A stretch of DNA of 64,000 nt from Kalaharituber pfeilii. Its lineage: Eukaryota > Ascomycota > Pezizomycetes > Pezizales > Pezizaceae. Location of the stretch: NCBI GenBank assembly GCA_015179045.1, contig WHUZ01000025.1:186001-250000 (forward strand). The letters run 5' to 3'. The notes below the pieces were generated by a model. That model did not search any database. It was not told where the DNA came from and was given only the letters and a program-made list of their open reading frames with translations. The position numbers were made by a program, and so were the translations under genes. How positions within the stretch are numbered: the first letter of the stretch is position 1; each line of letters begins with the position of its first letter. This document shows positions 21,243 through 50,251 of the stretch, piece after piece.

Positions 21243-21424
21243 TTGACGCCGCACTTGAATTACTGTTCCTACACCCTTCAAAAGCAACTCTTTTTCGGTC
21301 CCTTACATAGTCTCCTCCACTTACCGCAAAAGTGGCAGAATCAATTGCTTCACCCTCCTCTTCCGCTACAGGCTCTAGCTCCTCTATTTCTCCACCGAAA
21401 GATTTGAAGAAATCATCTTCCAAC

Positions 21425-26941: not shown

Positions 26942-29055
26942 GCTTGTGCCAAGATTCTGTGGGTGAATGGGAGTGTATGTAGGTATATGGGGATATTGGA
27001 ACATGAGGGTCTCAGAGGGAACAGCCCCTATAACATGGCTGGCGGAGAACGCCTGGCTGCAGCTGGGGCCATTCCAAAGCGAAATAGCCTCTAGGTATAT
27101 GGGGGCTCCAGACAGACTAAGTTTGTAAATATGGTCGGTAGAGGATGCGTAGCGGAGCTAGCCGTCAATTTCCAAAGTGAGAGGTTGCTGCTCCTTTCCA
27201 AAAACAAGCAATAGGTTGGTATCCGAGGGCTTTGACCGGTACGAGAGTTCTTTCATGAAAGCAGATGCACAGGTATTTCTCTTTGAGGCTAAGAAATCAT
27301 TGTGCATATGCGACATCATCCAGTCAGCGTTGGATCTTTCACCACGAGGTGACGTAGTTACGCCACAAGTTGACACACATTTTACGCCAAAACTGACTAG
27401 TTAGGAGAACATACTGTATATCTCAACCACCCGAATAGAATTTTTTATGCGCTCTCCAGGGGAAGTAAACCAACGCTCATTCTTCGCACCCATGATCTCC
27501 AATTAGGCGAATGCTATGAATTCACTGCCTCTCCTGTTTTCAATTTTATAAATATAATCAGGAGTATATACACGCGCGCGCGGAGCTGAAGAAATAGCCT
27601 TGATCACTAGTTCGGAGGCTTAAGCTTGGCAACAGTCGGCTTGGTCGATCGTTCTACCGCGGCCTGCTTCAGAGGTTTGTACCTTCATGAATTGCACTGC
27701 ATGCAGCACTGGAGCGAAGAAATTAACCTAATCATAGACCCTACTAAACTCCAAGCGAATTCGTTAATGGCATGCTGCAGGGTCGACATTTGTGCCCTGA
27801 ATCAAAATTTCATAGATGCGCTTCGAATTCCTGAATTTTATATAGTCGCCATGAATGGAATTGTCTAGACTAGAATAATAGAGGAGGGGCTCAATCGAGA
27901 CTTATTGATAGTTTGCTCAACATAGATGTACGTTACTTTTTCCAGTCAGGATTTACGGAGGTTACCATTCCCCCTGGCACCTCTGAAGACTGACAAATTA
28001 TGGGCACAAAGTTCTTTGGGCGGGGTCAAATTATATAACTCGGGTACGAATGCAAAAGCAAGGATTATAGAAATATAGTGTTCTCCTAAATTCGCTTGAT
28101 CCCACTATCTCCGAGATGCGGCAATGATACCCCGGGTTCCACCCGTCCCAGCGTTCTTCCAGTTTGTAATACCACTCTACCTTGTGCTGCAACGTTCCCG
28201 TGCTACAAAGGCATGGCTTGGCACCTCCATAAGCATAACGCATAACTGATCAAGGCACGATACTTCAAATAAATTTTGTACACAATGAACTCTCGAGCGG
28301 AGGTGGAGCGACGCTTGTGGGTGGGCCTTCAGACCTTGCAGGTAGAGTTCTTTTTGTTTTTCTTTTTTTGCCGAGGAGCTGGAGCACAGGCCAGAAAGGA
28401 ATGGGAAGTACTCGATAATTGACCGATGGAGTGAAGATAGAAAGATGTGCCACCAAGACTGGCCACTGCGATGAGGAAGGCATGCGAGAATTCTTTAGTG
28501 CTTGTTGTGTCTTAGGAGCTGGCCGGTGTGGGGCGGGTGGAGCTGGTGCTCTGGTGCATGCTTGCGTTCAAAGTGACAATCTATAACATCACCAGGTATG
28601 GGAGACACGCGCAGGCCTTTACACGAAATCAGTAATAGCACCTGTACTGTACAACTTCCACTATACTGATTGATCGCTGCTTTCCTGGATTGTTGTACGT
28701 TACAATTTGACCGAAAATCTTCAGCTCTTGCTTCCTTTTCTCTTTTTTTGCTCAGTTTTTCGCTTGGAGTTTGATCTCGGCTCTAACGATTAACTTGAGC
28801 TTTCAGCTGAATTGAGGTACCGGCCCATGGTCGTTATATTACCGGAGCAAGGATCCGTGAGAACCTGTGCATTTCACCTCGCTTGTACTGCATCCTCCCC
28901 TGTTGGCCCAGGATGATGCTCATTTTGGACGCAAGTCACTGATTTTGGAAGATCTCACTCGATTCAACGCTGAACTTTTGATATTGGCAGCAACAAGGAA
29001 AGCTGAAAGCAGCTCTGGCGTTAACCTAATTCTGTTACACAAGGAAAAAACGGTT
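26942..29055. other. Unassigned DNA, gene-poor
   Basis: Contains two of the three diverged ~100-bp direct repeats at its start, an alternating CG run (CGCGCGCG) near 27572, and several short frames (for example 27626-27868 and 28867-29094) without recognisable domains or clear splice structure. I see no gene I can support. Confidence 0.5.
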
Positions 29056-29121
29056 ACCCTGCCATGGCTTGGCGCTGCAAGCGGGGTTATGTGATGTAAA
29101 AAAAAAAAAAAAAAAAAAAAA
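29056..29121 (+). mobile_element. Ultrashort LINE family I tail insertion
   Basis: About 41 bp of family I tail plus poly-A. TSD AAGGAAAAAACGGTT before and AAGGAAAAACGGTTT after, differing by one A in a homopolymer. Confidence 0.9.
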
Positions 29122-29621
29122 AAGGAAAAACGGTTTGTCCAACTTCCAGCTCTTTCTTGTAAAATGGGGACCCTTCTGGATGGAAAAATTGACCCTTGCT
29201 AGCTTTAATGCTAGTCAGGGCTATGAATTGAGAAAACAGCTTAGCAGTTTGGAGAATGAGGAAGTGAGTATGTACATCTTGCAAATCTAGCATCACAAAA
29301 TCAGCTGTATAGTTCCATATGTCCCTTCCACCTACAGGGTGTCGGTCATTGTCCGCTAGATCGTGTTAGGCAGCCTTCAAAGGAAACTATTCGTGCAGGC
29401 TCGGGTTTTGTTGCCATGTTCGGTTCCTGGAGATCTACGGGCAGCGCGGTGATATTGAGAGGGATAGTTGGGATGAAGTATGATTTTAGTCTCAATTGAT
29501 GCACCCGAACCGCTGTATGGTCCAACCCCGTAGCGGAAAGTTCCTATGATTCTCAGCTTTCCCTGCGCTGTCCACTTAGTAGGTGACTGAAAATGCTGGC
29601 ATGAAGGGTGGGCCGGCGGTG

Positions 29622-29629
29622 TATAAAAG
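29622..29629 (+). promoter_or_regulatory. TATA box of the CBM-like gene
   Basis: TATAAAAG lies 156 bp upstream of the ATG at 29785, in a CG-rich context (GGCGGTGTATAAAAG). It is followed by a three-copy 26-bp repeat in the inferred leader. Confidence 0.6.
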
Positions 29630-29651
29630 AGCCATCTCAGCCATGGCCATT

Positions 29652-29729
29652 GCGTATCTTCTCAATTCCATCCCATTGCGCATCTTCTCAATTCCATCCC
29701 ATTGCGCATCTTCTCAATTCCATTCCAAT
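29652..29729 (+). repeat. Three 26-bp tandem repeats in the 5' leader
   Basis: Units GCGYATCTTCTCAATTCCAT + CCCATT, the third slightly diverged, between the TATA box and the start codon. They would be part of the transcribed leader. Confidence 0.9.
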
Positions 29730-29784
29730 TCGACCTTGCCCTTTCACGTCTCGTTCCTGCCAGCACGCATTACATTTCGCAGAC

Positions 29785-30503
29785 ATGCCTTCTATGACCT
29801 GCTTTTCAACATTGGCACTATATGCCGTGATTCTTCTGGGACAGATTGCTCGTGTCTCTGGTGCACCGAGCACGAACGACAATACGTAAGTTACTGTGGG
29901 ACTTGATAGCCTTGCCTGCAAAGTTCATTGCAACTAATCTGCGTTGCCATTTACTAAAGTGATCCCGCCTGCTGTGTCCCGGACATCCCGGTGCCTGTCC
30001 TCTCACCCCATACTGTCACAACAACCGTGACGGAAACCGTTACAATTACTGCGTTTCCCGAATTCTGCTGTCCAAGTACCAACCGGATTGCCAATCCAGG
30101 TTTCGAGACTGACGATGCCTGGAACGTCGGAAACAACTACATCTTCCGTGCTAATCCCACCCCGGGTGTGCACGACGCCCGCGTGATCGTTTCCGAATTC
30201 ACCGGTCCAAACCAAACCCGCACATTCTCCCAGACAATTTCTGGGCTATGCCCAGGTCGCGTCTACCGATTCAAGGCAGAAATTCAAATGTGGCAGGGAA
30301 GCGGAACAGCATACGTCAATTATTCGTTGGGCAGCATTCAGTTCTTGAGAACTCAGTCGCTCGCCAGGGGGCCTTGGGTAACAGTCAGGGGACTCGTGAC
30401 GCCAACTGCAACAACGATGGTATTGACAGTGAACGTTATCTCAAATGGGGCGGCTGGTACAAGGAAGTTTGTGCAGGATGATTTTGAGCTTATCCTAGTT
30501 TAG
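29785..30503 (+). CDS. Secreted protein with CBM4/9-like jelly-roll domain
   Basis: Two exons, 29785-29885 and 29960-30503 (74-nt GT-AG intron), giving 214 residues. Residues 1-26 form a signal peptide with a hydrophobic core (LALYAVILLGQIARVSGA). A Cys-containing segment and a Thr/Val linker (TVTTTVTETVTITAF) follow, then from about residue 82 a single carbohydrate-binding-like domain: RIANPGFETDDAWNVG, AEIQMW, YVNYSLG and FVQDDFELILV, the last two features typical of CBM_4_9/CenC-type folds. The protein is probably extracellular and binds a glycan; the ligand is unknown. Six-Cys pattern not complete, so not a hydrophobin. Start chosen for the signal peptide and TATA context. Confidence 0.85.
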
Positions 30504-30996
30504 AAGTAGTGGGCAGAAATTGAGAAGAGGAGCATTGGGTGCCTGTTCGCATGGTATTACATTTACAGCATATGGGTTATATATGGTATAATCTCGCCTA
30601 TTATATGGCGAAGATATATCCTTTGTGCGCTCCTCACATTTACTTCCTGAGGTTCTACGTTGAGATAGTTTCTCTTTTGTTGTTCGTTGTTATATGTATG
30701 TAATTCCTTGTTATGCTGCTATGTGAGCTATGGTAATATTACTCTAGGCTTTAAAATAGAGCAAATTAAATTTTCATCTATATTGACTCCTAAAGAACCT
30801 TTTGTCCCTACACCTCCATGGCGCTTGTTGCTACCTCCATCACTGGAGACAACAGCATTCCAGTTCGACCAAGGGATAGGTCAGTTCACAAGAATAGACA
30901 AAACCCAAGCCGCTTAAGCCCCCCTCCCCTCCTCTATCACCTCTCAATCATAAAACTCACACCTCCCCCTCCACCACGTCTCAACTGTACCCCCAT
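30504..30996. other. Unassigned DNA downstream of the CBM-like gene
   Basis: AT-rich 3' flank, probably including the terminator of the gene at 29785-30503. No other gene seen. Confidence 0.5.
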
Positions 30997-31099
30997 CCTT
31001 AAGCCTGCCTCCGGGCTTTGAGGGTCTAGACCCAGGGGCCCTGCTATGGCGAACAGCTACAAGCGGGGTCACGTGAAATAAAAAAAAAAAAAAAAAAAA
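30997..31099 (+). mobile_element. Ultrashort LINE family I tail insertion with perfect TSD
   Basis: 103 bp with a slightly diverged family I tail and about 21 A. Perfect 10-bp TSD GTACCCCCAT at 30987-30996 and 31100-31109. Confidence 0.92.
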
Positions 31100-31109
31100 G
31101 TACCCCCAT

Positions 31110-32469
31110 GCAGCAGCTGCAGCAGTAGCTCGACCCCTTCCCTCCCCCTTCAGCCAGCGTCTTCACTCGCTCCGCCATCAGCCCCAGCTGCTCATAAAGC
31201 CCCTTGCTCATAAAGCCCCTGCCATTAGTGGTTCCGACAGCCCTCCAGCAGCTGCTCCAAACAGTCACTCCAACAAGCTGTCCAACATCTTCCTCCAACA
31301 GCCCTTATAGTTCCCTGTTTTTTTTTTTTAAAAAAAAATATATCTTTAATCGCATGGTGCCCTGTGGCCTATGGCATGTTATAGCTCCTTTTTCCAGTCA
31401 ATGCAAATCAATCCCACGCATCTTTTTCAATTTTCCAATTTTATATCGCGTTCGTTTTATCACGGCCGATGGTTCATATTCCTTTTCCCCCGCTTATACC
31501 TTCTACCAATAGCATCTTCATTCTTAATCTCAAGGGGGCTATGGATAGGTACAAACGGGCTCTACTTGGACCAAGGCTATAATACGGTTGCCCGAGGAGA
31601 GCCTGGCTAACATAGCCCTTAGGGCGGCAATTTTTTTTTATTTTATTTTTTTTATTTCATTACTCTTAGCTAACTTGCGCGATGAATCGGAAAGCAGAAA
31701 GTGCTGTCCCTATTTTTTTTTAAAAAAAAAAATGCAACTTGTAGCTATACGGGGGTTTCTGTGTAGAATTCCCGTAGCACAAAAATTGAGTTTTGACTAA
31801 CTACTACTAAGTACGTACGTACACAACCCAATTACTCATCTTATTAAAACTACCACAGATGTCCTTCATACCCCAAAGAATCGACTAATCTTCCATACTA
31901 GTAGTTAGATTATATTAGGTGCCTGGTACTTCCTAATCTCTGTCGTCAAGTCTTACATCCAGAAAAGTTCCCATTTTCCTCCTCCGAACCCCGCTCCTCT
32001 ACCTCTTCCTTTTTTTTTACCTTCCCCAATCCTCCCTTTCCAATACTTACTAGCTACTCACCACTCGCGCGGGTCACATCTACCCCCCTTCTCCTTTTCT
32101 CCCTCTCACTATACATACAACAGAAGACTAGCTCTTCAAAATCAAAAATTTACCACGTTACGCCTGCACTATGGATTGGATAGATACATACCGAAGTACA
32201 CACCAGCTACGAACTGCAGACAAAAAACATTTACATTTTATTCCTTTTTCGTTTTCATCTCCACTTCAGGGTAAGAGTGGTTTGCAATAAGTTACCTTGG
32301 GCCGTGAGTATACGTAGGGCGATGTAGTAGAGTGTAAGAGGGAACACTACATTAACGTTGGTAAAAACCGCGGCGGCCCTTTGCATTTCTTACGTAACCA
32401 CAAAAATCAAAATTAACAAAACCCAAACTGGCCGGAACTTATGCATATTTATATATATACTTTGACGTC
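31110..32469. other. Unassigned DNA with decayed LINE tails
   Basis: Two degraded family II tails in reverse: T-run and ATCGCATGGTGCCCTGTGGC near 31320-31375, and a piece with CATAGCCCTTAGGGCGGC near 31608-31625 joined to T/A-rich DNA. The rest (31800-32470) is plain DNA; no gene seen. Confidence 0.5.
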
Positions 32470-33300
32470 GACCCCTTGTCAAAAAGATTTTGTCCCCATT
32501 AGACAGGCGTCCACGCCTCCGGCACCGCCGGGCCAACACCAACGGCCTCTCCCCATCCCGCCCCTCCACCGGCGCATCCCAATCCTTCACCAACATCGCC
32601 CCCACCGCGCCGCCCCACCCAAAGCTCGCGTCAATCTGGAAGACCCCCGAGCCTTTTCCGTACAGCGAGAAGAGGCTGGGCGTAAAGATCTCCTGCAGGG
32701 CGTACCCGAGCAGCCAGTGTGCTTGGGCTTTTGCGGTCGTGTTTGTAGTGGAGCCGGAGGAAAAGGTCGGGGCGGTGGTGGTGGACGGAAGCTGCGACCA
32801 GCATGCAGCACGCCAGACTTTAGCCCAGCCCGCGTTAGCGTCGAGCCAGTTGCCCGGCCCGGTGTACGACCGTCGTAGTGACTGTGTCAATGATGCTTCT
32901 CGTGCTGGAAGTGAGCGACGAAATGGCATACCTAGGGAACCAACCGTACAAGTGGCTCAAGTGCCTGTGCTTATCCGTCGAGCCGCCCCTATCAATTTTC
33001 CACTCCTGAATCTGCCCGTACCGGCCCACGTGCACGCCCTATCCAACTTCGCCAGCGCGGCCTTCACGCGGGATTCGAATTTGGCATCAGAATCCCCGGA
33101 GGCCTCCCACCCCTTCAACACGTTCTGCAGCACCTTCCAGATCTGCTGCTGGTCAATCGCGCACCCGAACGTGGTGGGGTGCTGCTCAGGGGAATTGCAG
33201 ACCCCGACAACGAGGGACCCGTCCTTGTGGAACTCGTCCTCGGCCAGCATGTTTAGCGGAACAGCACAACGCCTTTCAGCAACGGATACCCAACCTTCCG
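32470..33300 (-). pseudogene. GH95 alpha-L-fucosidase-like, C-terminal part, broken
   Basis: Minus strand continuation of the gene at 42258-43900. Starting at the TSD it reads KVGYPLLKGVVLF, then NMLAEDEFHKDGSLVVGVCN, QQQIWKVLQNVLKG, VGRYGQIQEWKID, STDKHRHLSHLYGWFP and GNWLDANAGWAKVWRAACW, ending near FQIDASFGWGGAVGAMLVKD. The order and motifs (EWKxD, DxHRHLSHL, GWAKVWRAA, FQIDxNFG) are those of family 95 glycoside hydrolases. At least three frameshifts (near 33268, 33020 and 32890) break it. The extreme C-terminus is not recognisable past 32480. Confidence 0.88.
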
Positions 33301-33394
33301 CGGGACCTCTCGGGGCAGGCCAGACTGGCCTGCCCGGATGCAGGGGTATCGACAGGGGACTGTAGACTAGCCTGCCAAGTTGCAGAGGTATCCA

Positions 33395-33542
33395 CAGGGG
33401 ACGGCACAGGTCTTCAGATCGCATGCCAGGCTTATGCATATGCGTGAGAGGAGAGGTATGTAGACATTCCTATTGGTTTTATAGACAACATACATACACC
33501 TTGAGTCTAGTATGCGATCTGAAGACCTGTGCCCGTCCCCTG
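33395..33542. mobile_element. 148-bp TA-flanked MITE in T2-A
   Basis: Same MITE as at 19765-19912 and at the same position of the T arm. Right flank TA at 33543-33544; the left flank is CA, one transition away from TA. Confidence 0.85.
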
Positions 33543-34124
33543 TACTAGCCGAAAAAATAAGTATCCGGACAGGGGATAATTGCATGTTATGCATTTGGTG
33601 TAAACTAACATATGTTCGTAGTGGATAACCATGACACTAGTCCAATTTCGTAGATTGTCGAATTTTATTATGTCAGTAATATCCGGACAGCTGACATAAT
33701 GAATTTGAGCCTATCATACAGCAGCAGAATAAATACTCCGTACATAACACAAGAACAAGGTAGTATATACAAGAACGGTAGGCAAAAAAGGACCAGGTAA
33801 AAACTCAAGTATCATTCTTAGTAACATAATAATATTCTCATAGGTGCTGAAATAACCCCGCAGAAAAGAGCAGCCATTGTGGCCTACATTGAGGTATTCG
33901 TATACCAAATAGCCCAAGCAAGCTTTTATCAATAAAACAATATCTACAATAATAAAGATACTGAAATCAACATGCACTGACATCATTGAGAATGCAGTTT
34001 TGAGAGCTTCACATGCATCAGCTACAAATCTTGAAGTTGTGATCAAGTGCAGATGAGAGTACTGCCACTAGAGGTAGGTCACTACTGCTTGTTTTCACTG
34101 CTATTGCAGTGCTCTTCTGTAGCC

Positions 34125-34330
34125 TGTTCCAGAGGCTTTTCCGGAAGCTTTTGCGGAGGCTGTTCTGAGGCTGTTCCGGAGGTCGTTCCGGAGGTTGTTC
34201 CGGAGGCTACTTCGGAGGCCGTTTCGGAGGCCGTTTCGGAGGCCGTTTTGGAGGTTGTTTCAGACGCTGTTTTGGAGACTGTTTCGAAGGCTGTTTGAGC
34301 TCGAACAGCCTCTCGAACAGTATTTCAATG
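34125..34330. repeat. 12-bp repeat array in T2-A
   Basis: About fifteen units near GGAGGCCGTTTC / GGAGGTTGTTCC, one strand translating as repeated SEAV/PEVV. Homologous to the interrupted array in T1. Confidence 0.85.
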
Positions 34331-34825
34331 GCCTCTGGAACAGCCTCTGGAACAGTCTTGGAATAGCCTTGGAAAAGCTTCTAGAAAAGCCCTGAAGAGC
34401 AGTCTCGAAATCTTAGGATCTACCAGAATAGTAACTTTTGATCATTATAATGCCTGAACCTGTACTTATCATGGTTGCCTGCAGTGCCATTTTTATATTC
34501 CTAATAGAGGACTTATATCTATTTTCCTTGTCCTGATACATAGGTATAGGACTGTTGGTGTTGCAAGTCCCAAACTCATTATGTCAGCTGTCCGGATACT
34601 TCTGGCATAATAAAATTGGACACTTCCACGAAATTTGGACTGGTCTCATAAACATCCACGGCCAAGCATACGAAAATATGCTAGTTTATGCCAACTACTG
34701 CATAGCGCATAATATGCATTTATCCCCTGTCTGGATACTTATTTTTTCGGCTAGTAGATACCTCTGCAACCGAGCAGGCTAGTCTACAGTCCCCTGTCGA
34801 TACCCCTGCATCCGGAGAGGTCCCG

Positions 34826-35393
34826 GGCGATAACATATATATAGACTATCTGTCCTGTAGCACATGCACGCAGTAATGATATAAAAATAAAGAAAAACTG
34901 TAGTACATACAATCAACAACCTTCTTCTCTTCTCTTCTCTTCGCACTCGCACCCGCATTTGGCCGTACGTTCCTTCCGCCAGTTCTCACCGCTCCGGTCC
35001 ATCGAACGGCAGTAGTGGATACTATCTGTCTATCTTACACTGGTTTTCGAGTTTGTGCGTTGATGAGTGGCCTGGCCCAGTAAGCAGTGGCCCAGTTACC
35101 CATTGGTCCAGCTAAAATGACTGGCCCCAAACGTATGTCGCATTGCGGTGACAGACAGTGCTGTAATAGTTTATGGCTTTCTTCGGAAACAAGACACTCC
35201 TTAATCTTATCGCATCTGACACATTGGGCGAAGAAAAGAGCAGTTGGGTAAACTCACCACTGTACAAATAGAATATTTTTTTACTCGTTTTTTTTTCTTC
35301 TTCATGTATTTTTTGAAATTTATAAAACTACATCGTTGGAAAGTTAAAAGTTGGACAATGGACAATCTTGTATATGTCATTACTCGCGTGCCG
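34826..35393. other. Left end of the T2 cargo, unassigned
   Basis: Starts with a decayed family II tail (about 34847-34885, GTAATGATATAAAAATAAAG). Otherwise no gene. An older family II tail starts at about 35370 and is itself interrupted at 35407. Confidence 0.45.
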
Positions 35394-35406
35394 ACCTATG
35401 TGCTAT

Positions 35407-35577
35407 TTTTTTTTTTTTTTTTTATTTCATTAATCGCATGCCGCCCTATGGGCTATGGCGATGTTTAGTTACAGTGGTATGATGGAAAAATGAGTAAAGA
35501 AAAATCGATAATGAAAGAGTAAAGAAAAATTGAACCGTCCTATTCCTCCCCGCCCATTCCAATATTTCCGCCATGTG
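35407..35577 (-). mobile_element. LINE family II 3' end inserted into an older family II tail
   Basis: Poly-T, hairpin tail, 3' UTR and the last codons (AEILEWAGRNR). TSD ACCTATGTGCTAT (35394-35406) and ACGTATGTGCTAT (35578-35590), one mismatch. The host sequence ATTACTCGCGTGCCGACCTA...GGCGAG is itself a family II tail. Confidence 0.85.
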
Positions 35578-35687
35578 ACGTATGTGCTATGGCGAGATGA
35601 AAACAGCGGAATGTCTCCATCCAGTCACTTTTCTGACTGGATGGAAGCAGGGATAAAAGGCGCTAGCCAGATATATATTTAAAGCAT

Positions 35688-37108
35688 TTTTTTTTTTTTT
35701 TTTTTTTTATATCATTAATCGCATGCCGCCCTAAGGGCTATGGCGATATTTAGTTATATATAAAAATAAAAAGAAAGTCAGAAATAAAAGTTGAACTCCC
35801 CGGAGACTCCTGTGTGCAGGGGAAGTGAAAATGACAGTGACATTAACAGATGAAAGTGGAAATCCCCAGAACCTCCTGTGTAAAAGGGAATTGAGAATAA
35901 CAGTCACAATACCAGTGTGGTCCCCGTATCCTCCGATGTGATGGGAATGTACAAATACCAGGGGGAAAACCAGTACCAACTCACTTCCTTCTCCTGTCCC
36001 ACTCGTACTTGCTAGCCTTCAACCATTTCCCTCCCAGTCTCACCTTCTCCAGCTCAACCTGTCTCTCAAGGTATACCACAACTGAGCTGGTGGTTTTGCC
36101 TTCCTCCGTTAGGATTGCCTTTTTTCTCAGCCATCGAATTCCTTCCACCTTTCCCAGATCCCGGTTAGCAGCCTCTAACCACCTCCGGACATTGTTCAAA
36201 TCCTTCCGGAGTGCAATTCCGTGTACGACAAGGCCGGTTTTCGTCTTGGTGGTGGCCTCCGGTGTGCTGGTTGGGGCTGGCTGCTTTGTCGGGGGGGGGC
36301 TGTGGGGGCACTGGGCTGAGGGAGGGGGTGTGAATTTGTGTTGGCGTTGGCCGCCGCGATCTTTTCCGCCTCTTTGTCATCTAGCCGACGTTTGAATGCG
36401 TAGTCAGCTTGTGGTGACGGTGCCTTACCCTTGCGCTTCTTGGATGGCAGGGTAGGTGTCGGAGTGAGGGTGGGGGATGGATCCGCGGGGGCCAGTACGG
36501 TCGTGGCGGTGGGTTCCACCGGAGTTGTGTCTAAAGTAGTAATGGGGCTGAACCCCAGTGTCGGTGGCTGTGGCGGCATCAGTGGATCTTCTGGTAGCGT
36601 CGGTGGGGAGTTGTTCAGCCAACTCGGACGTGGGTCGTCGGGGTCTCCTGTAAACACCTGTACCGTCGCATCCTGGTTAAAACGTAACGCCATGACAGAT
36701 CCGTCGACAGGTTTTCTTTGGTCCGTCCCGAGGCCCCACAGTGCGGTAAGGACGATGTACCAGAGGTGTGGTCCCGGTTCCCGCAGCAACCTTTGCTTTG
36801 CCTCTTCCCACTCTGGGATCGGCAGTCTGTCAACGTCTCTATAGTACTTGTCTAACACGAGATGGAAGTCCGCCTGACTCGGCGGAGCCGGCGTAGGGGG
36901 GGCGGGGACGGGGCTCGGGGGGTCTGCGGCGGGGGAGCGGTCTTCTTTGTCTTCTTTCCTTTCGGTGGCATCTTATTGGCTGACCAGTCGTCTTATTGGT
37001 GTTCTGGGTGGTGTCTTGGCGCGGACAGGGGTGTGGTTGAAACGATGGTGTTGAGCTGAAGAATCCTCCGAATCTCTCCCCTCGGAAATTTGCAGCGTCG
37101 GGTATTTG
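35688..37108 (-). mobile_element. ORF1-only LINE (HAL1-like), full length (copy 2)
   Basis: Minus strand; perfect 13-bp TSD ATATTTAAAGCAT at 35675-35687 and 37109-37121. Order on the minus strand: 137-bp leader, ORF1 (36971-35981), a 3' UTR of about 55-bp repeats (each with a CTCCTGTGT-like core), family II hairpin tail, poly-A. No endonuclease or RT sequence is present. Retention of a leader and ATG suggests a full-length copy of a non-autonomous type mobilised in trans, with family II ORF2 as the likely helper (inference). Confidence 0.85.
35981..36971 (-). pseudogene. LINE ORF1 (gag-like RNA-binding protein), frameshifted
   Basis: ATG at 36971 (MPPKGKKTKK...), then a proline-rich segment, a central part LDKYYRDVDRLPIPEWEEAK, a long Pro/Thr-rich linker, and the conserved C-terminus VVHGIALRKDLNNVRRWLEA, GIRWLRKKAILTEEGKTTSS, VVVYLERQ and VRLGGKWLKASKYEWDRRRK. 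That end matches fungal LINE ORF1 proteins. Two frameshifts lie in homopolymers: C7 (plus-strand G run near 36895) and G9 near 36292. Usual length is about 330 residues. Confidence 0.82.
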
Positions 37109-37132
37109 ATATTTAAAGCATCTGCGAACCTA

Positions 37133-37726
37133 CTAATACATACAAGCCATGTTCTCTACCACGCCACCAGACCACCTAATCCAGTACTTTTCGGTATCTA
37201 CTTCAGTATCCTTCTGAACTATCCTACGTGACTGCACAACAATCACATCCTGAGTGTGATTATCTGCACTATCATCACAATCCTGAATTTCATGATCTTC
37301 CGGCATTTCAGTCACTTTTCGCTGTGAGTGCAGAATTCGCCGTGAGTGCAGAATGATAACATCCTGAGTATGATTTTCAGCCATATTATCACGTTCTTGG
37401 ATAGCTCGCCGTTTAGCTAACTCCACTTCAGCCCCAGTAGGCCCACGAGCAGTGCCTTTTGTCTTTGGGTTACGTGAGGTTGGGGTACCAGATGCTGTTC
37501 GAAACTGGGTCCTGAAGCTTGGTTCTGGAGAAGGTAAAATTGTAGTTGGGAAAGTGGGAGTTTTCCAACGAGTTTGCAATGCTTGAACAGTTTGTTGAAA
37601 CTCTCGAACTTGATGTGCTGCTATATGAGCAGGTTGTGCTGCCAAATGACTCTCGAGATTGTATGTTAAATATGCAGCCGGCATAGCAGCAATGGTTTCG
37701 CGGGCACGGAGAAGAGATACAGACAT
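37133..37726 (-). CDS. MULE-3 encoded 197-residue protein, unknown function
   Basis: Uninterrupted frame from ATG at 37726 to a stop just inside the left arm. N-terminus MSVSLLRARETIAAMPAAYL, then a Gln/His-rich helix (SHLAAQPAHIAAHQVREFQQ), a Pro/Thr segment, a basic GPTGAEVELAKRRAIQERDN helix, and two direct repeats of a NHTQDVI-VVQSRR type. No catalytic motif recognised. A broken relative lies beside MULE-1 at 9565. It could be an element-encoded accessory protein or a captured host gene. Confidence 0.6.
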   Translation of the reverse strand: MSVSLLRARETIAAMPAAYLTYNLESHLAAQPAHIAAHQVREFQQTVQALQTRWKTPTFPTTILPSPEPSFRTQFRTASGTPTSRNPKTKGTARGPTGAEVELAKRRAIQERDNMAENHTQDVIILHSRRILHSQRKVTEMPEDHEIQDCDDSADNHTQDVIVVQSRRIVQKDTEVDTEKYWIRWSGGVVENMACMY

Positions 37727-37739
37727 TGAAGAGAGATAA

Positions 37740-37820
37740 TTGGAGCCGAGATAGTGGAAGGCAAGGCTTTAGGCGACGTTGTATGAGGCGAGGTTCTATG
37801 AGGCGAGGTTGTATGAGACG
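37740..37820. repeat. 14-bp tandem repeat upstream of the MULE-3 gene
   Basis: Imperfect copies of GTTSTATGAGGCGAG (minus: CTCGCCTCATACAAC) within the 5' region of the MULE-3 gene. Confidence 0.7.
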
Positions 37821-38220
37821 AGGTATACGCTGAAGCAATACCGGTAGCAGAAGGGAGGTAGTGAAGGAAGCGAAGGAAGCATTGTTCCAAATTTTTGAAA
37901 CATCCTTGTATTGTGGGGTGGGGGTGAACATTGGTGTGAACTAGTCTCGTAACCAGACTAGGTGTGAACATGGCTATGTACTAGTAGATTAGCGGATGCT
38001 TTAAATATATATCTGGCTAGCACCTTTTATCCCTGCTTCCATCCAGTCAGAAAAGTGACTGGATGGAGACATTCCGTGAAAACAGTGCAAGATGAATTAC
38101 TGCCCATGCAGCCACCCCACTGCAACTTGCAAGAAACGACACTTTATCCAATTCAAGAATTCTAAGATATTTGGGATAAAACTATAGCTACAGTCTCCAA
38201 CAGATTCTCATTTACGATAC

Positions 38221-38284
38221 CTTTTTTTTTTTTTTTTTTTTCAATATCATTACTCGCAGGCCGCCCTATGGGCTATGGCGAGGT
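38221..38284 (-). mobile_element. Ultrashort LINE family II tail insertion with perfect TSD
   Basis: Poly-T plus the 42-bp hairpin tail only. Perfect 13-bp TSD TCATTTACGATAC at 38208-38220 and 38285-38297. Confidence 0.95.
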
Positions 38285-38381
38285 TCATTTACGATACAGA
38301 TTCTTCCCCACCATCCCCGTTTTCCACATATTCCCCTTGTTCTGATGGTAAGCAGTTGGGCGGTCACCACCGCCATAAAAT

Positions 38382-39554
38382 TCAAGAATAATATTCCAAT
38401 TCTGTCGACGAACAAAAGTGACATTGCAGGTTTTTATGCGCAGTCCACTCAGAAATTGATTCTGGAAAACAATAGTCGGCACAAGGTGTGTCATTGGGAT
38501 TCCATCGCTCCTTTGTGCCGCTCGGATTCACTTGTGATCCGGTGTAGACATTTCTGCAACTGGGGCATGTATATTTTGCTACCCCAACCTTTTGGCATTG
38601 CTTCCATCTTCGATTCAGTATATGCTCGAAGTTAAACACGAACCATGGTGCTAGTTTTAGCGGGGGAAGAGCTAAGATTACGGCTGTCGCAAGCTCCACA
38701 TTTGTAGCAAAAAGCTTTTTATATGCTGGAATCTGGCGGATGGTTGCAAGGCCCCATGCCAGGTAATTCGCATAGTACTCTAGGAGAACATCATGCGCAC
38801 AAATATTGCAAAATGCGTACTCAATAATTTGGGCGAGATGAGGGTGCAAATCAGAGTTCGCAGGTGGGCAGCCAATGGTTCTGAGTTCTGAGCTCAAGCA
38901 TGCGAACGAAAACCCCTTGAGGCGGTTGATGTTGAAACGGTCTGCATAAATGTAGATGCGAGTGTGGATTAAGATGGACGCAGGACCAGTGGCTCCCCTG
39001 AGTGCATGCATGCAATCTGCAGTCAGAACTTTATAGGTCGGAGGATTTCAGGCCTTACTCTGCTACTTACGTGCAATACTTTTTGGTGTAGCCCCATTCC
39101 AAAACCCTCTCCATCGTTATAGAATCAACCTCTTTGAAGACAATTATTCCTGTCTTCCCTTCTTTCATTTCATTATGCACGTGCTTGTCTAGCTCTGGTG
39201 ACATGGATGCTAACAAGGACCGGTGAACGTAAAATGGACCACCGGAGTCAGAGGTGCGGCAGGAATTAGCCGCTAAGACTTCGCTTCCCTCAGATTGTGA
39301 AACAGCGTCGTCAGATTTAAGCAAAATCTGGAACAATTCGCTGCGTAGGATGGAGTAGTCAAATGCATTGACATTTGGTATACTGGACGAAGACCATGCG
39401 GGCGGAATTCAGCCGCATAGATAATCGTATTAGCGTTATATATCTTAGCAAGTTGAGAGCTAAGGAAGCTAAAGGTAGCCGAGGAGATGCTTAGGAATGG
39501 TAGAGAACAGTAAGCTATGCGCACTCACCCTGGTGAAGCCCCTGCTTGGCTCAT
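38382..39554 (-). CDS. BTB/POZ-domain protein, intact, carried in T2
   Basis: Three exons on the minus strand: 39554-39529, 39382-39071 and 38997-38382, with introns of 146 and 73 nt, all in phase; 317 residues. Residues about 20-125 form a BTB fold: FDYSILRSELFQILLKSDDA, GGPFYVHRSLLASMSPELDK and a TMERVLEWGYTKKY helix, then IYIYADRFNINRLKGFSFAC, the region that follows BTB in fungal proteins. A Cys-rich C-terminus (YTCPSCRNVY, CHFCSS) may bind zinc. The family acts in protein interaction, often as cullin-3 adaptors; the partner is unknown. Retained introns mean capture or movement as DNA, not through mRNA. Confidence 0.82.
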
Positions 39555-40409
39555 GATTTCTAAGTCTGTTAAATGGTGAACTAATCCTCTGCAACCAGAT
39601 CTGCAGCAGTTATTTAGGCTCTTAGATGTTGACAGGTCGTGTTCAAATATGCGGTTTTACGATATTGATGTAGCGAGGATTTCCACTTATCTGCCTTATC
39701 ACAAGTTATCAGGATGAAGTGGCCACAGAGCTGAGCTGGCAAAAGAAGGTCTACAAGCACAGAGCAACGAACGGACTGGCGCTGGAGTAAAGGTAGCTGC
39801 AAAGGCTCGGAAAGTTCACGCGAGTCCTGGGAGGAATCTTAGGAGCGGGAAGCTTGGAGCGGGAAGCTTGGAGCGGAGAACCTGGATGTAAGTAAGAAAT
39901 CGATGCAGGGGCAAGCAAGCGTCTTGGCATCCCTCCATTCAAAGCCCCATGTTACACACGGTCCAAATGAATTCTTAATTATAGAAACAGTTGCCGCTAT
40001 CGCTCTATCCTTTGGGTGGTCGAGACATGCATAAATTCTATGCCGAAAACTAACTGTTTTTATCCCTGTCCATTCCGATCAGACCTATCAGATTGCAATC
40101 TCAGAGCCCACGCAGTCCATGATTTAGCATCTACGGAAATAGTGTTGTGGGAATTCACTGCATTATTGTTATGAATTATGTTAACTATAAGTTCTAATTG
40201 TGAGCCCAATAGAAATAACCAAAGTGGCAGTTATTCTATTATGTACAGAGTGATATATTATGTGTGATACTAATATAGTGAAGGTGAAGGACAGGAAAGA
40301 TACTAGCTAGTAAAATATGTATTCGGACATAGCGCATAATGTGCATTGGTACCCCTGTCCGAATACATATTTTACTGGCTAGTAATAGATTCCGAGAAAT
40401 CTGCAAACA
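39555..40409. other. Unassigned cargo DNA
   Basis: Includes a 15-bp tandem (GGAGCGGGAAGCTT, three copies near 39840-39875) and the hairpin at 40301-40384. No gene seen. Confidence 0.45.
40301..40384. repeat. Perfectly folded hairpin related to the T arm
   Basis: Arms of 29 bp (40301-40329 and 40356-40384) with one mismatch around a 26-base loop. The loop and right arm (CATAGCGCATAATGTGCATT...TGTCCGAATAC) match the inner T arm (CATAGCGCATAATATGCATT...TGTCCGGATAC), so it looks like a miniature derivative of a T-related sequence. Confidence 0.75.
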
Positions 40410-40418
40410 AGACACCCT

Positions 40419-40473
40419 ATATCGCCATAGCCCACAGGGCGGCATGCGATTAATGATATATAAAAAAAAAAAA
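40419..40473 (+). mobile_element. Ultrashort LINE family II tail insertion with TSD
   Basis: 55 bp: hairpin tail and poly-A. 9-bp TSD AGACACCCT at 40410-40418 and 40474-40482. Confidence 0.92.
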
Positions 40474-40622
40474 AAGACACCCTGTGACAAATTTCTGTAT
40501 ATAGTGATAGGTGGCAATAGCTGCTGAGCTGTTGTAGAGGCATTGGTATGTAAGATGAGGTTAGAGGTTAGCAAGTCTAGTTTCAGACTGGGACAAAGGT
40601 ATGTACCTCAATTATTCCATAC

Positions 40623-41166
40623 TTAATGTTTTTTGAAATTGCATTTGACCTCTCCATAGAGATTGTCTATCATATCTACTGAATTCTCTATGGCAGATGG
40701 ATTACAAACGTTGCATTTTGATATGGCAAAGGCCGTCTCTTGGCGTCTCTTGGCGCAGCGCCACCCGGCACAAAATTCATGCATGTCTGGACCACCCAAG
40801 GGATATTCCAGCAACCTACACTTGAGCAAACCACATACTCCTACAGGTACCGGTATGTATGTTGCATGTATTATGCGTTTCCGCTTACCCGAGTAATACC
40901 AGTATGCATGATGTACGTATGTACGGACCTCGATCGCCTCATGTGGTGGTTCGCAAACTCGTTTCCAATGGCCCATTTTAATTTCTTGCAACCAGCAGTT
41001 TAACGACATTCTGCTCCTCAGTTTCTTCATCCGCACCCCGCACTAGTGCGCACAATAAGAGTGCCTGTTGATGCACCCATGAACCTGCATGGTGGTACTC
41101 CGCCAGAGATTGGAGGCCTGCCAAGAACGCTGAAAAAGTATACAACAGAGAAGAAAGATTATGCAT
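40623..41166 (-). other. Possible gene fragment in T2 cargo, unrecognised
   Basis: Two overlapping minus-strand frames: 41166-40978 (FLAGLQSLAEYHHAGSWVHQ, ALLLCALVRGADEETEEQNV) and 41036-40623 (Cys-rich, FAISKCNVCNPS). The second half of the first frame and its context resemble an exon, but splice sites and family are unclear. It may be the 3' part of the broken BTB gene region or an unrelated captured exon. Confidence 0.3.
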
Positions 41167-41617
41167 TTAAAGCCTGTAATTGCTAAATTGAATGTTTGTT
41201 GCTTTTCTATCTCCGTTGGTAAACGTTACCTTCAGCACCAATATTCGTCACTTGCTTTTGCTCAAGAGAATAATTCTTGCTAAGACCAGGACAGTTGTCT
41301 ATTGAAGGTCGCTCATATTGGACGGCAACTAGATCGCCACGTATAACAGAGCTTGAACTCATGAGGAGTTTTTGTTCCTCTACCAAGTTCATCTCAAAGT
41401 ACTACACTGTCGTGAGTAAATCCCCATTTGTACCCCACCCATCACAAAGGGCAGCGCCAGTTTTGAACAACAAGCAGATGTCGCCATGCCGGCAGTTATA
41501 ATGCGAGTTCGCCTGCTGATGCTAGCGCTTGCTCCCGTAGTGCCACCGCGCAGTGCAGCACTTTCGACTACTCCGTTTTTCATAGTGATGATCTATCACT
41601 ATCATCCTTGCTTCAAA

Positions 41618-41801
41618 CGTTCCCCCATGGCATCAAAACCTGCACCCCAAGCTCACTGTTGGGCTCGTAAGTAGCTCTGGAAACCCATTCCACGTGCACC
41701 GCGCCATGCTGGCGTCGCTTTCCCCCGAGATGCGGAAGCACGTGGACAATTCGATGAAAGAGGGACAGGAAAAAGCAATGACGCTCCATGATGTGGACTA
41801 T
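41618..41801 (+). pseudogene. Second BTB gene fragment, cut by the T arm
   Basis: Plus strand: LHPKLTVGLVSSSGNPFHVH, then AMLASLSPEMRKHVDNSMKE, clearly the BTB core and similar to the intact gene at 38382-39554 (FYVHRSLLASMSPELDKHVH). A FDYSV start like the FDYSI of that gene lies 50 bp upstream in another frame. The domain ends abruptly at about 41801, where the T2-B arm begins. Confidence 0.8.
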
Positions 41802-42247
41802 GTCTGAACCTGTGCTTATCAAGGTTACCTGCAGTGCCATTTTTATATTCCTAGTAGAGGACTTATATCTATTTTCCTTAGTCCTGATATGTAGGTATAG
41901 GACTGTTGGTGTTGCAAGTCCCAAATTCATTATGCCAGCAGTCCGGATACTTTTTTTTTTTTTTTTAATACCATTAATCGCGTGCCGCCCTATGGGCTAT
42001 GGCGATCCAACTGTCCGGATACTTCTGACATAATAAAATTGGACACTATCCACGAAAATTTGGACTGGTCTCATAAACATCCACGGCCAAGCATACGAAA
42101 ATATGCTAGTTTATGCCAACTACTGCATAGCGCATGGTATGCATTTATTCCCTGTCCGGATACTTATTTTTCGGCTAGTAGAACCTCTGCAACCGGGCAG
42201 GCTAAGTAGTCTACATTCCCCTGACTGGCCTGCCCGGAGAGGTCCCG
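41802..42247 (-). mobile_element. T2-B: right arm of a second T element
   Basis: Matches the last ~372 bp of T2-A (from CTGAACCTGT at 34454) after removing a LINE tail. Ends with ...CTGCCCGGAGAGGTCCCG and abuts the 10-bp TSD in GH95. Confidence 0.9.
41953..42012 (-). mobile_element. Ultrashort LINE family II tail insertion with TSD
   Basis: Poly-T plus hairpin tail in the T2-B arm. 12-bp TSD GTCCGGATACTT at 41941-41952 and 42013-42024 (the first overlaps the T-run). Confidence 0.92.
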
Positions 42248-42257
42248 CAACCTTCCG

Positions 42258-43900
42258 TCACCAGGTGGCGTTCCGGCCATAGTCGTACCGGTCCCAGACG
42301 TGCTGCATCATCCATGCCTTGGCCGCTAAGTAAAAGTGCCAGTGGCTCCCGCCCGAGTCGCCGCCCTTCACGCCGGTGGATCCGAACGGGTTGAGCTCGT
42401 TGTGTATGACCCAGCCCTCGGGAGCGCCGTAGAGGAGCTGCGCGGTCTCGGTGCGGCGTGGTCCCGCTGTGATGACGGCTCAACAGTATCCACTGTTTTG
42501 CACGGGTGACGGTATCTAGAGCTGGCAGAACGAAGTCTCAAGGGCAGCCTCAATGGTCAGATGTCAAGGAAAGGGTCTTCAATTGTCTTGTCTGTGCGTG
42601 TCGCTGTCTGTATATATCTGTATGATCTATCCATACAGTCCTATCTACATACATTTTATAGACCACCTTCGCCTTTTAACTGAGCCTGTACATACACATC
42701 TCGCTTCTTAAACGTAATTTTCTTCCTCATCTCACGCATGTGTCATCATGTGGCCCTACCGATGAGTACCGCTCCAGCCCGCGTTTGGCCTTATCCTTTC
42801 CATCGGTACCGTGGTTACTACCACACCGCATGTGCGTCCAGACGGCCTCGGGATGTGCGCCCGCGGGGCCAAAGGTCTCGGCGCCCCAGAGGTTCATTTG
42901 CAGGATGATGTTGGTGTGGTAGTCGGCAGACCAGGGAGCCCCCAAGCCCCAAGACCAGACGCCCTGGAGGTTCGGTGGCATGGTGCCGAGACGCGGGAGG
43001 CGATGAGCAATTACCGTGCGTAGTGGAACAGGAGGGCCTCGAGGTACGGGTCGCCACCCTTGGTGAGACTGTATTCCTTTACGAGCTGGGATGTCAGCTT
43101 GGATTTTGAGCCCAGCGCGCTTGAAGGTGTTGAACAGGCGCGGTGGTCCTTGATATGCGCCGACAGCAAGGACTCAAACGCCCTCTTCGTGTTACGGTGT
43201 CTGCGATTGCAGCGAAATGTAGGTGTAACTTAGGACAGCGCTTGGAACTTGACCTTTGTATAGAGGCCGTGGAGGCCTCTATATATAGGTGTCCAGCGTG
43301 TCGGTTATTTGCATTATTCTATTTAACATTGAGTGCTAACTAACAAGCTTCTCTCTCTTTACCATCATAACTATGGATGGCGTGATTATCATGCGTCATC
43401 TCTCATCGCTTATCATTGATACTTTGTTCGGTCACCCTGACACTTCGCTGCCTCAGCAAGCTCCCTCTGCACTCCCTCAGCACGGCCGACGCCACGGAAA
43501 CTGTACCCGGCCCCCGCGTTGCCCTTTGTGTGGTCGTAGTTAGTTGTTGGCGGTAAATACGAGGAAGACTCCGTGGCTTTGGCGGTTGCGGGGACGTGGA
43601 TCCTGCCCTGGCTGGTCGCAAAGTCGCTCTTCGTTTCGTTGGACGACAAGCGCGAGGCGGGGAATCGTAGAGCATGCTGTGCGGGATGCCGCGCATGCGG
43701 ATGGTGTTGGGGAAGAGGCAGGAAATGGTCGGTTGGAGGTCGCGGCCGAGGGCTCCGAGAGTGATGGTGGTGTTGGGAAGGGGGCTTTGTGGAGCTGATG
43801 TGGTAGATGCACGATTTGGAAGGGTTGGAGCAGAAGTATTGTCTATTTAAGATAGTAGGGGGAAGGTTAGTGAAGAGTTCTGGGTCAAAGTGTAGCAGCA
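42258..43900 (-). pseudogene. GH95 alpha-L-fucosidase-like, N-terminal and central part, broken
   Basis: Minus strand. Recognisable blocks: FTANNYDHTKGNAGAGYSFR region (43430-43800), FESLLSAHIKDHRA (about 43190-43150), [90 protein letters not shown]. These are the core of GH95 (NLQG-x-W, SADYHxNIxxQMN, [10 protein letters not shown]), enzymes that cleave terminal alpha-1,2-fucose. It has frameshifts near 43000, a TGG-to-TGA stop next to the T2 insertion (42263), and a solo LTR at 42468-42825. Already damaged besides the T2 insertion. The start codon was not identified. Confidence 0.88.
42468..42825. repeat. Solo LTR, copy 3 (358 bp), in GH95
   Basis: TGTGATGACGG ... TTACTACCACA with a 4-bp TSD CCGC at 42464-42467 and 42826-42829. 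It splits the GH95 frame between the WTHM and TETAQLLYG blocks. Confidence 0.78.
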
Positions 43901-47729: not shown

Positions 47730-48921
47730 CCACGGCTTCGGGTGTGAAGGTTGCAAATCTCCAAAAAGCCTTATTACGAGACTAGGGGGTGGGGGGGGGG
47801 CCTGCGTTTTGCGATAATGAAATGAACATACATAATATGAACAAAATTGACGCCTGATTATTTTTTTTTTTTCAACGGGATCATGTAGCGAAGCGGCACG
47901 GGGGCAGCGAGAGCTTTTTGACCGTCGGGTGATAGTGGTGGTGGGTGGGCGGATGGAAGCAGAAGCCAAATCGTGTATCCCCGTGCAACAGGCAAATCGG
48001 CTTGCTTTTGTGTGTTCCCCCGTGAGGGAATATCACTGCGTAGCGGTAACGGTGGAGAGGGGCTTTTGGCGCGCATGACGCTGGTGGTGCTGCGCTGTGC
48101 TGGTGCTGCTGCTGCTGCTGTGGATGATGCCGCTTTCGGGCGCGGCGCACACGCTCGCAGGTTCCCACGTTTGTCCCAATGGGCGGCCGCCCACATTGCG
48201 AATCTATGTGCTCTCTAGCGGCGTTTGAAGCCTTACTTCTCCCGCTCCGCTCCCTCTTCCCCTCTCTCTTCCTCTCCCTCTCTGTCTCTCCATTCTCTCT
48301 CTCCTCTCTCTCTCTTCATCATCATCTATCCCTTCAACAGCCATCTACCCATCCTCACGGCACAAACGCCAGAGGAAACGAGCCCAGTCTCTCGATCCCC
48401 CCCCCTACCGATACCCCAGCCGCTGAAGCCAGACCCAGCGATCGCTGCAGCGAACGCAATCAGGTGACTAATTACCCCAACCCATCCAAGGCTCATTACC
48501 GCTCTGTTCTGTTTTCCTCTGCTAATCATCCACAGATCCCAAACAGCTTACAGCACTAAAAGTAAAATTGCTCCGTCCCTCGCTAGCGTTTCCTAAACCA
48601 ACCCTGCTAATTTTAATTCCCTATCTAATTAAGCATAGCCCCCCTCCATCCACCTTCCAATTATTACCCCTCGGGAAGATCATAATCACAGGATCTGTTC
48701 CATATAAACCATCATTATTCCACATCTATTCCCCCCGCCCCGAGTAGGTATTTGCTCTTTCGTTTGTTTCGATTTCTGCAAGAAAACGAATAAAGAAATA
48801 CTTTGGCTCACACTCAAACCCCCAGAAACAAGCGCAACCGCAGACAGTACGGAGGACAGACAGAAAAAAAATACTGGCCTTCTTTTTTCTAATTTAATTT
48901 TGTGTCTTCACACTTCACACA

Positions 48922-50251
48922 ATGCTCCTTACACTCGGAAGGACGATAAAACAGGTCGGCCTTCTTGCGCTGCAAGCTAGCACCGGCCTCGGGAATATCG
49001 CAGTCTCCGCTTACTGTGGTATGTTGCATGTGCGGGCGGGTTGACATGATAGCGAGTGTTGTTGCTGTTTTTTTTCTGACACACAAATTATGAGATTATT
49101 TTGCAGACCCAAAGTCGCTTTTCAAGCCCCCTCAAGTTCAGCTTGATGGAGATGTGGACACAGAGAAGAAGCCATTCAGGGATACTACTTCGTCGGTTCA
49201 AACTATATACGTTCCAGCAGCGGCTGCAGGACACGTGATCATGCCGGGTACTTTTCCAGGGCACGCACAGGCAGCGAAGCGTGCGATGGCCAATCGAAAG
49301 CTGAAGGTACCGCAGTCAAAGGTGACCAAGCACAATGTAGAGGAATTCACCGGCCCCCGCTTGTTTTCGAATGGGATGAGAGGATACGGGATTACCAATG
49401 ACGAGCTTGCACTGTATCCGAAAGAACCTCGTTACACCCTCCGCCCTGTCGTCCGGAAGCCTGGGAGTACAGAAGTTAGAAGGCGTCCGGCGGAGCCGAA
49501 GCAAGTTCAGGAGCGAAAGCGGAGGAGGAATAATCTCATGACCGCGGCAGAGATTCTTGAAGCGAGCCGAGGTGCATTACGAACCCGCGCAGCCAGCGAA
49601 AGCTCCGTCTCGTCGCTCAGCACTCTTTCCGAAAACAACCTGAAGCGCCGCATCAACGACATCACGGACGGCGTCGACACCCCCTCTGCCAAGCGCCTCC
49701 GCCGCACCCCATCCTGCGAACAACAAAAGTACGGGATTCTCCAGGAGGAGTTCAAGTCTGACGCATTCCGCCTCCTTCTCGTCACGATCTTCTTCTCCAC
49801 GATCCGCGCCCCAAACCCCGTCGAAGCCATCCAAGATTTCTTCGAAAACTTCACCACCCCGCTTGCGCTTGCCCAGGCCAACCATCGCATCGTCAGCGCC
49901 CACTTGCGCCGCATCCCCGGCGTCACCTGGGTCGACGGGAAGAACATGATCAAGTTTGCAAAGTCGTGGGTCAAGTGTCCGCCAAAGCCGATGGCCAAGA
50001 CCGTGCACAACTTCTACACAAAGGGAGATGATAATCTCGGATGGGAAATTGGGCACTTGTGGGGCGTTGGGGCTGTGGCGATTGACGCATGGAGGATCTT
50101 CTGCAGGGACAGGTTGTACGGGCATGTGGAGGAGAACGAGTGGAGGTCGGTTGTCACTGACGATCCGAAGCTGAATGCGTACTTGAGATGGAGGAAGGGA
50201 AAGGAGGATGCGAGGTTGTATCTGCAAGAGGGTGTGTCGTCGTCTGAGTAG
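48922..50251 (+). CDS. MBD4-like HhH-GPD DNA glycosylase
   Basis: Two exons, 48922-49018 and 49107-50251 (88-nt intron), 413 residues. The first exon gives MLLTLGRTIKQVGLLALQAS, possibly an organelle-targeting presequence. A basic, disordered middle (about 115-195, with RKRRRNN and KRLRR nuclear-type clusters) precedes the glycosylase domain at about 205-400: FRLLLVTIFFSTI, the helix-hairpin-helix IGHLWGVGAVAIDAWRIFC, and WRSVVTDDPKLNAYLRW, where the Asp aligns with the catalytic Asp of MBD4 (PxDKELxxYLxW). Family members remove T or U from G mispairs, as after deamination of 5-methylcytosine. No methyl-CpG-binding domain is visible, as usual in fungi. Start chosen because exon 1 splices in phase and has no upstream in-frame ATG nearby. 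Confidence 0.82.

Follow-up and report, generated by a model that had tools for sequence, protein, structure and literature searches.

Background

The Ac and Ds transposons of maize are hAT members, and their macrotransposons and composite insertions are reportedly the subject of Huang and Dooner (2008) and Wang et al. (2022). Both kinds of structure are documented for Ac/Ds (PMC9910405). The locus described here lies in a stretch of 64,000 nucleotides with fungal-looking gene content, called the window below (contig C168, positions 186001-250000; positions without a contig name are those of the window). It holds a composite of ~8.9 kb (33301-42247) that consists of the left end of one copy of T, a short element named in an earlier note on this DNA, the right end of another T and a BTB gene in between, and that lies within a GH95 pseudogene. 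On balance, we consider that the composite probably moved into GH95 as one unit, that is, as a macrotransposon. It is like Ac/Ds in that the outer ends of two nearby elements would have served as those of a single transposon, the intervening DNA would have been carried along and duplications stand at the outer ends (PMC9910405). Different from Ac/Ds however, which makes 8-bp duplications in a plant and whose excision has been seen directly, the composite belongs to what we read as a Mutator-like element (MULE) family with duplications of 9-10 bp, and is a fossil with neither donor nor excision product.

Target-site duplications of MULEs are 9-11 bp long (PMC4334395). For VANDAL21 of Arabidopsis alternative transposition has been proposed, and the part of the source cited here states that no earlier work had connected VANDAL elements with it (PMC12312487). 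The two cases are alike in that MULE-type ends of two neighbouring copies are proposed to act jointly (PMC12312487). However, the VANDAL21 copies lie head to head, the rearrangements are somatic and the duplications are not fully resolved, whereas the composite shows direct orientation, is inherited and has a resolved outer duplication. A citrus MULE deletion with dissimilar 9-bp duplications is not ascribed by its authors to standard alternative transposition in the portion of the report cited (PMC4334395). Plant MULEs with additional solo or tandem terminal inverted repeats (TIRs) are known as well, the origin of the extra TIR being left open in the passages concerned, and the composite is like them in having an extra TIR inside a MULE (PMC3310237). 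Unlike in these elements, its inner end is still bordered by an older flank, and what has been added is an entire element.

Pack-MULEs carry copied gene fragments, the parents of which remain elsewhere. The composite shares with them the presence of gene DNA between MULE ends but differs in that the gene is apparently whole, a complete element lies inside and no near-identical copy was found among the matches listed. Pack-MULEs are mentioned in two of the sources on plant MULEs (PMC3310237, PMC12312487). In the open-access literature searched for 'macrotransposon' and 'macrotransposition', no paper was by its title on a MULE or a fungal transposon, one paper on tomato resistance naming a fungus; the words 'macrotransposon' and 'fungal' in PMC10175614 are, in the part of that article seen in the search, terms of its reference list only. 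A gene-carrying MULE macrotransposon in a fungus would be new relative to maize Ac/Ds. If our explanation is true, macrotransposition extends from maize Ac/Ds to a MULE in a fungal-looking genome, and small non-autonomous elements can relocate a whole multi-exon gene without capture by copying.

Results and Discussion

Boundaries of the composite and its target

The features that define the composite are as follows (T-A denotes the T copy at 33301-34825, RA the right arm at 41802-42247, and LTR a long terminal repeat).

32390-33290, minus strand: GH95 pseudogene, C-terminal side (profile positions 207-282 and 324-408)
33291-33300, plus strand: left copy of the outer target-site duplication, CAACCTTCCG, an exact match to 42248-42257; the same 10 bp precede a T left arm at C168:148.5 kb
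33301-34825, plus strand: T-A, a complete T of 1525 bp, of the main ('young') subfamily according to its identity to other copies in eight bins (94-99% to L002, L003 and L004 in every bin); it provides the left end of the composite
34815-34825, plus strand: inner right end of T-A, GAGAGGTCCCG, which the outer repeat does not follow
34826-35040, plus strand: 3' part of an LTR-like repeat, starting GGCGATAAC, from alignment to other copies; its name rests on TG..CA ends
41802-42247, plus strand: RA, what is left of a second T, of subfamily 2, after truncation on the left, grouping with copies on contig C320 and at locus L016; it provides the right end of the composite
42248-42257, plus strand: right copy of the outer target-site duplication, CAACCTTCCG; the counterpart on C320 reads CAGCCTTCCG
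42258-43189, minus strand: GH95 pseudogene, N-terminal side, interrupted by other repeats (profile positions 86-113 and 135-187)

The earlier note had described a perfect 10-bp direct repeat and T-family ends as bounding the interval, and this holds in full. The sequence CAACCTTCCG is found twice in the window, both times on the plus strand, and its copies stand directly outside CGGGACCTCTC.. (33301) and ..GAGAGGTCCCG (42247); the chance of a 10-bp match at two fixed places is ~1e-6.

Scored against the Pfam GH95 catalytic domain (cut-off 27 bits), the right flank matches profile positions 86-113 at 25.5 bits, below the cut-off, and 135-187 at 40.9 bits, and the left flank matches positions 207-282 at 32.8 bits and 324-408 at 24.3 bits, the latter again below the cut-off. 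The pieces are colinear across the insertion, with the N-terminal part in the right flank (minus strand) and the C-terminal part in the left. The proposal that joining the flanks restores GH95 codon order thus stands as far as the colinear domain pieces and a reading frame that continues over the junction are concerned, yet a TGA adjoins this junction and later pieces lie in another frame. Because its pieces are in more than one frame and because of the TGA beside the junction, we regard GH95 as a pseudogene already, whose breakage need not stem from insertion of the composite.

The inner end of T-A

As had also been noted before, a complete T at 33301-34825 is joined in the interval by the right arm of another at 41802-42247, and the inner right end at 34825 lacks the outer duplication which the outer end at 42247 possesses; we confirm both points. 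RA matches the right part of T-A at 90-97%, in pieces. The right T being truncated at 41802, a single inner end is testable, and here the right end of T-A is followed by GGCGATAAC instead of the outer repeat. Ten copies of the LTR-like repeat outside the composite were aligned, out of 40 scored; six run uninterrupted through this point as ..CACGTGAGGCGATATC|ATATATATAG.. or close variants of it, two carry an insertion at this point and two differ upstream. The upstream half of the repeat is absent in the window, GH95 with its own 10-bp duplication standing in its place. T-A therefore appears, as far as the alignment tells, once to have been inserted into the LTR-like repeat, and GGCGATAAC looks like its older target-site duplication. 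Since the inner T end abuts the middle of the split LTR-like repeat, the left end of T-A would have been reused and its right end not. The inner end, in other words, appears to retain at 34826 the flank of a donor site. The composite thereby offers a clear account of how a MULE may come by an additional internal end, in that this end bears the flank of an earlier insertion, a question left open in the passages cited above (PMC3310237).

Two T subfamilies at the outer ends

Five of the ten copies compared with T-A (L002, L003, L004, L012 and L013) are 93-99% identical to it in all eight bins, without a step. The remaining five give 95.9-98.7% (L005), 90.7-97.9% (L018), 93.7-98.0% (L024), 92.8-98.7% (L011, whose row does not end at the T terminus and whose last bin is unreliable) and 79-95% (L023). 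RA, on the other hand, groups with the T on C320 and with L016, which is the copy on contig C68, at a support of 0.998 in a tree of right arms (27 rows, 355 columns). The states that RA shares only with these two copies span 41822-42216, the last one lying 31 bp from the RA end. In left-arm trees, which are built from short alignments and have moderate supports, T-A and its duplicate at C168:148 kb (0.965) fall with L002 (0.76-0.78), and the C320 and C68 copies fall together elsewhere (0.785). Judged by these alignments, the outer arms of the composite belong to different T subfamilies, the right arm to within 31 bp of its end, so that the outer ends come from two different copies in direct orientation.

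T as a MULE family

The T ends are 11-bp perfect terminal inverted repeats, and the 67-bp arms of T-A (33329-33395 and 34754-34820) are 91% complementary. A test for target-site duplications was based on the 13 two-ended copies among 30 fetched loci; it omitted the window itself (L001), loci L021, L022 and L030, which lack a credible end pair, and loci with at most one end in range. Exact target duplications of 9 or 10 bp flank 12 of the 13 copies. The thirteenth, L020 (C306:196901-200207), is a palindrome in which 2331 bp with T ends are flanked on both sides by the same 436 bp, inverted and 100% identical, and is either recent or an assembly artefact. End pairings taken from small stretches gave exact 9- or 10-bp duplications in seven of 11 cases; those that fail are C21, the inner end in C38 and two on C90, of which C90b is void because the stretch stops before the end of the element. 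At up to two mismatches, the 20-base T terminus has 353 matches in the assembly searched (78 Mb, 360 contigs) as compared to one for a reversed-pattern control. T is without a long open frame, there being one of 110 codons among frames of at least 100 codons.

A larger element at C15:95859-98765 has T ends and an exact 9-bp duplication, resembles T-A at 89% over its terminal 168 bp and at 92% over its terminal 124 bp, and matches PF10551 (MULE transposase) at 49.7 bits (cut-off 27.6); one TAG and one TAA lie in the match. This element, whose ends are in L154 and L155, is MULE-like and a relative of the probable transposase source. Because of the 9-10 bp duplications and the PF10551 match in an element with T ends, we read T as a non-autonomous MULE.

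A second composite was considered at C38:53490-56702, where the outer duplication is exact and an inner end has none. However, sequence of the T interior flanks this inner end, and although the inner left end was not sought, the structure is probably a T nested in another T and no precedent for the composite.

Related copies on C168 and C320

At C168:148475-149409, GH95-left is followed as in the composite by CAACCTTCCG and then by a T left arm, of which 195 of 196 bp agree before the sequences diverge; identity over the whole 935 bp is 98.5%. A subfamily-2 T at C320:167762-173799 possesses both ends, has grown by insertions and is free of cargo. On its right stand GH95-right and CAGCCTTCCG, but its left flank ends ..TATAGGTAA, is not GH95 and gives no duplication. 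Both outer junctions of the composite thus recur, the left one at C168:148475-149409 and that of the T right arm with GH95-right on C320. This recurrence speaks against an assembly mis-join inside T, a sequence that is repeated as the 353 terminal matches attest. Given that the junctions at 34825 and 41801 share no more than a few bases between their sides, and that the outer duplications match exactly, we consider a mis-join very improbable.

Since the other GH95 half is missing at its T, C320 must itself have been rearranged. We ruled it out as a simple T at the same GH95 site on account of its left flank. Nor is it supported as keeper of the missing right part of the cargo: no BTB match is listed near its T, the nearest one listed on C320 lying ~51 kb away (125 of 170 candidates scored), and the DNA to the left of the T resembles coding sequence of a long interspersed nuclear element. 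The last ~200 bases before the T have no match.

Copies of the GH95 region are scattered, at C168:148 kb, C168:219-228 kb and on C320, and are broken within or beside a T. Such breaks are what one would expect if T-A by its left end and another T by its right end, situated on different molecules or sister chromatids, had jointly attacked GH95, the rearranged or re-replicated product being a translocation or a composite insertion; the window, C168:148 kb and C320 would then be pieces of that history. The flanks would fit as mirror images, as T-A has kept its old right flank and lost the left one, and the C320 T has GH95 on its right and other DNA on its left. Then again, both GH95 halves with perfect duplications are present in the window, which one macrotransposition explains more simply, and TATAGGTAA is only putatively an old target repeat of the C320 T. 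We therefore think it quite unlikely that the composite arose by alternative transposition of this other kind.

Origin of the composite

Our preferred explanation, that the composite entered GH95 as a macrotransposon, would begin with the insertion of T-A, a young T, into the LTR-like repeat. Downstream of it would have lain the BTB gene region and, in the same orientation, a second T of the other subfamily. A MULE transposase acting in trans would then have brought T-A's left end together with the right end of that other T, and all the DNA from one end to the other would have entered GH95 as a unit, giving rise to the 10-bp duplication CAACCTTCCG, while the unused right end of T-A would have kept its old flank. 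The junction between cargo and RA at 41801/41802, which lies inside a second BTB gene (BTB2), may be older or may result from a deletion by which the right T lost its left part afterwards; the complete T without cargo on C320 points to such a deletion. We favour macrotransposition because a single event, followed by the deletion, accounts for the duplication at the outer ends, the two arm subfamilies and the flank of the inner end. The outer duplication, the identities of the ends, the arm subfamilies and the split LTR-like repeat are observed, whereas the synapsis of the ends, their use in just one event, the timing of the deletion and the source of the transposase are inferred.

But could the cargo have reached a simple T that already resided in GH95 with its 10-bp duplication? 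Such a T might later have been repaired from, or have recombined with, a T-A linked to the BTB region, be it by integration of a circle or by strand invasion and end joining at 41801/41802. The cargo-free T of RA's subfamily on C320, which joins GH95-right and extends to the left of the 41802 breakpoint, speaks for this course, and so does the 41802 junction, whose position, at an arbitrary point of T and within a BTB gene, is of the kind that end joining produces. However, that T has no GH95 on its left. Moreover, the left arm of the composite is young from near its first base and the right arm belongs to subfamily 2 up to 31 bp from its end; with two subfamilies a single resident T would therefore have to be a chimera already, unless the exchange took place in the outermost bases. 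In our opinion it is unlikely that a resident T was enlarged. The arrangement of the C320 T as such fits both models. The earlier note had counted a simple T in GH95 as a case for later recombination, and a cargo-free T does adjoin GH95-right on C320, but with a left flank that is not GH95 it answers to that description in part only.

Several points weigh against macrotransposition. Patterns designed to recognize the donor have not revealed it: GGCGATAACCGGGACCTC has no match in the assembly, be it exact or with one mismatch, and 69 pattern matches at 1 mismatch, of which 50 were read directly and the other 19 were listed with their 3' half, yielded no LTR-like half that breaks off at the insertion point. 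Furthermore, the right T is truncated at 41802, inside BTB2, and the present 8.9 kb may for this reason not be the unit that jumped. The C320 T shares the repeat inserted in RA, and its counterpart of 41804-41950 differs from RA by one indel and zero substitutions. One way to read this is that GH95 held a simple T before it received the cargo, and C320 is the best evidence for a once-simple T beside GH95. Finally, the left-arm subfamilies are separated only by position 24, which is imperfect as L017 breaks it, and by states from ~95 on, so that the left-arm states leave room for an exchange inside the outermost bases, and the tree support that unites T-A with L002 is moderate.

The 50 LTR-like stretches read directly include 41 with LTR-like continuation motifs, six that share one other continuation and two (L126 and L136) that are alike and then diverge. 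Locus L127 on contig C224 was examined as a donor since it has a break at the right place, but its upstream side is without LTR-like sequence and the match is due to chance. A T preceded by GGCGATAAC was found 24 times at 2-3 mismatches and none better, as compared to 29 matches for a reversed-pattern control. Neither of the two patterns tried thus located in the assembly the donor for which the earlier note had asked, a result that is neutral if the donor has been excised, changed or left unassembled. As to the earlier preference for a macrotransposon over later enlargement, the arm subfamilies and the split LTR-like repeat favour it, whereas the lack of a donor and the truncated right T do not.

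More generally, this fungal MULE family may move host DNA in gene-sized portions by macrotransposition, and ends mixed in the same way may have made the GH95 pieces on C168 and C320, a view that we advance tentatively and with somewhat more doubt than belief. If it is true, alternative transposition both relocates genes and rearranges chromosomes in this genome.

Contents of the composite

Between and within the two Ts the following further features are found.

35607-38076, plus strand: TIR element with 81-bp inverted repeats (35607-35687 and 37996-38076), split by a multi-copy repeat at ~35687-37108
38382-39554, minus strand: BTB1, three exons, 317 amino acids, open frame throughout (Pfam BTB match, manual splice sites)
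40006-40805, plus strand: multi-copy TIR repeat, the ends of which match each other inverted
41658-41801, plus strand: BTB2, second BTB gene, broken off in the BTB domain at the T junction (51% amino acid identity to BTB1 over 47 residues; 21.6 bits, cut-off 20.5)
41950-42006, minus strand: short repeat with poly-A tail inserted in RA, present at the same place in C320 and in no other copy shown in the alignment

The BTB gene had been described as intact and intron-containing, and apparently it is. BTB1 consists of exons 39554-39529, 39382-39071 and 38997-38382, separated by GT..AG introns of 146 and 73 bp whose splice sites were picked by the analyst without a transcript, and its product matches the Pfam BTB domain at 24.0 bits (cut-off 20.5). 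Its closest relative among the assembly matches listed, C314:300877-301890, shows 55-58% amino acid identity, far from the near-identical parent gene that marks a Pack-MULE. At the DNA level, none of the matches listed for 38290-40005 at other places is above 80% identical (of 3304 candidates the best 40 were scored), and no close second copy of the cargo outside the repeats is present among the matches listed (best 40 candidates scored). The BTB2 fragment ending at 41801 and the nested repeats in the cargo are additions to the earlier description.

Surroundings of the composite

Downstream, window positions 48150-52310 have copies on C320 (93%) and at C168:266 kb, ~32 kb further along (94%), and by this similarity the downstream region is segmentally duplicated. 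Positions 28000-31786 match C293:386963-390720 at 91-97%, whereas the right neighbourhood matches C320; this reads as a mosaic of duplicated segments that meets near GH95. Two long open frames lie farther out: one of 1478 codons at 21332-25768, which by eye resembles a Ty1/copia polyprotein, and one of 548 codons on the minus strand at 55751-57397, with repeats that by eye are ankyrin-like.

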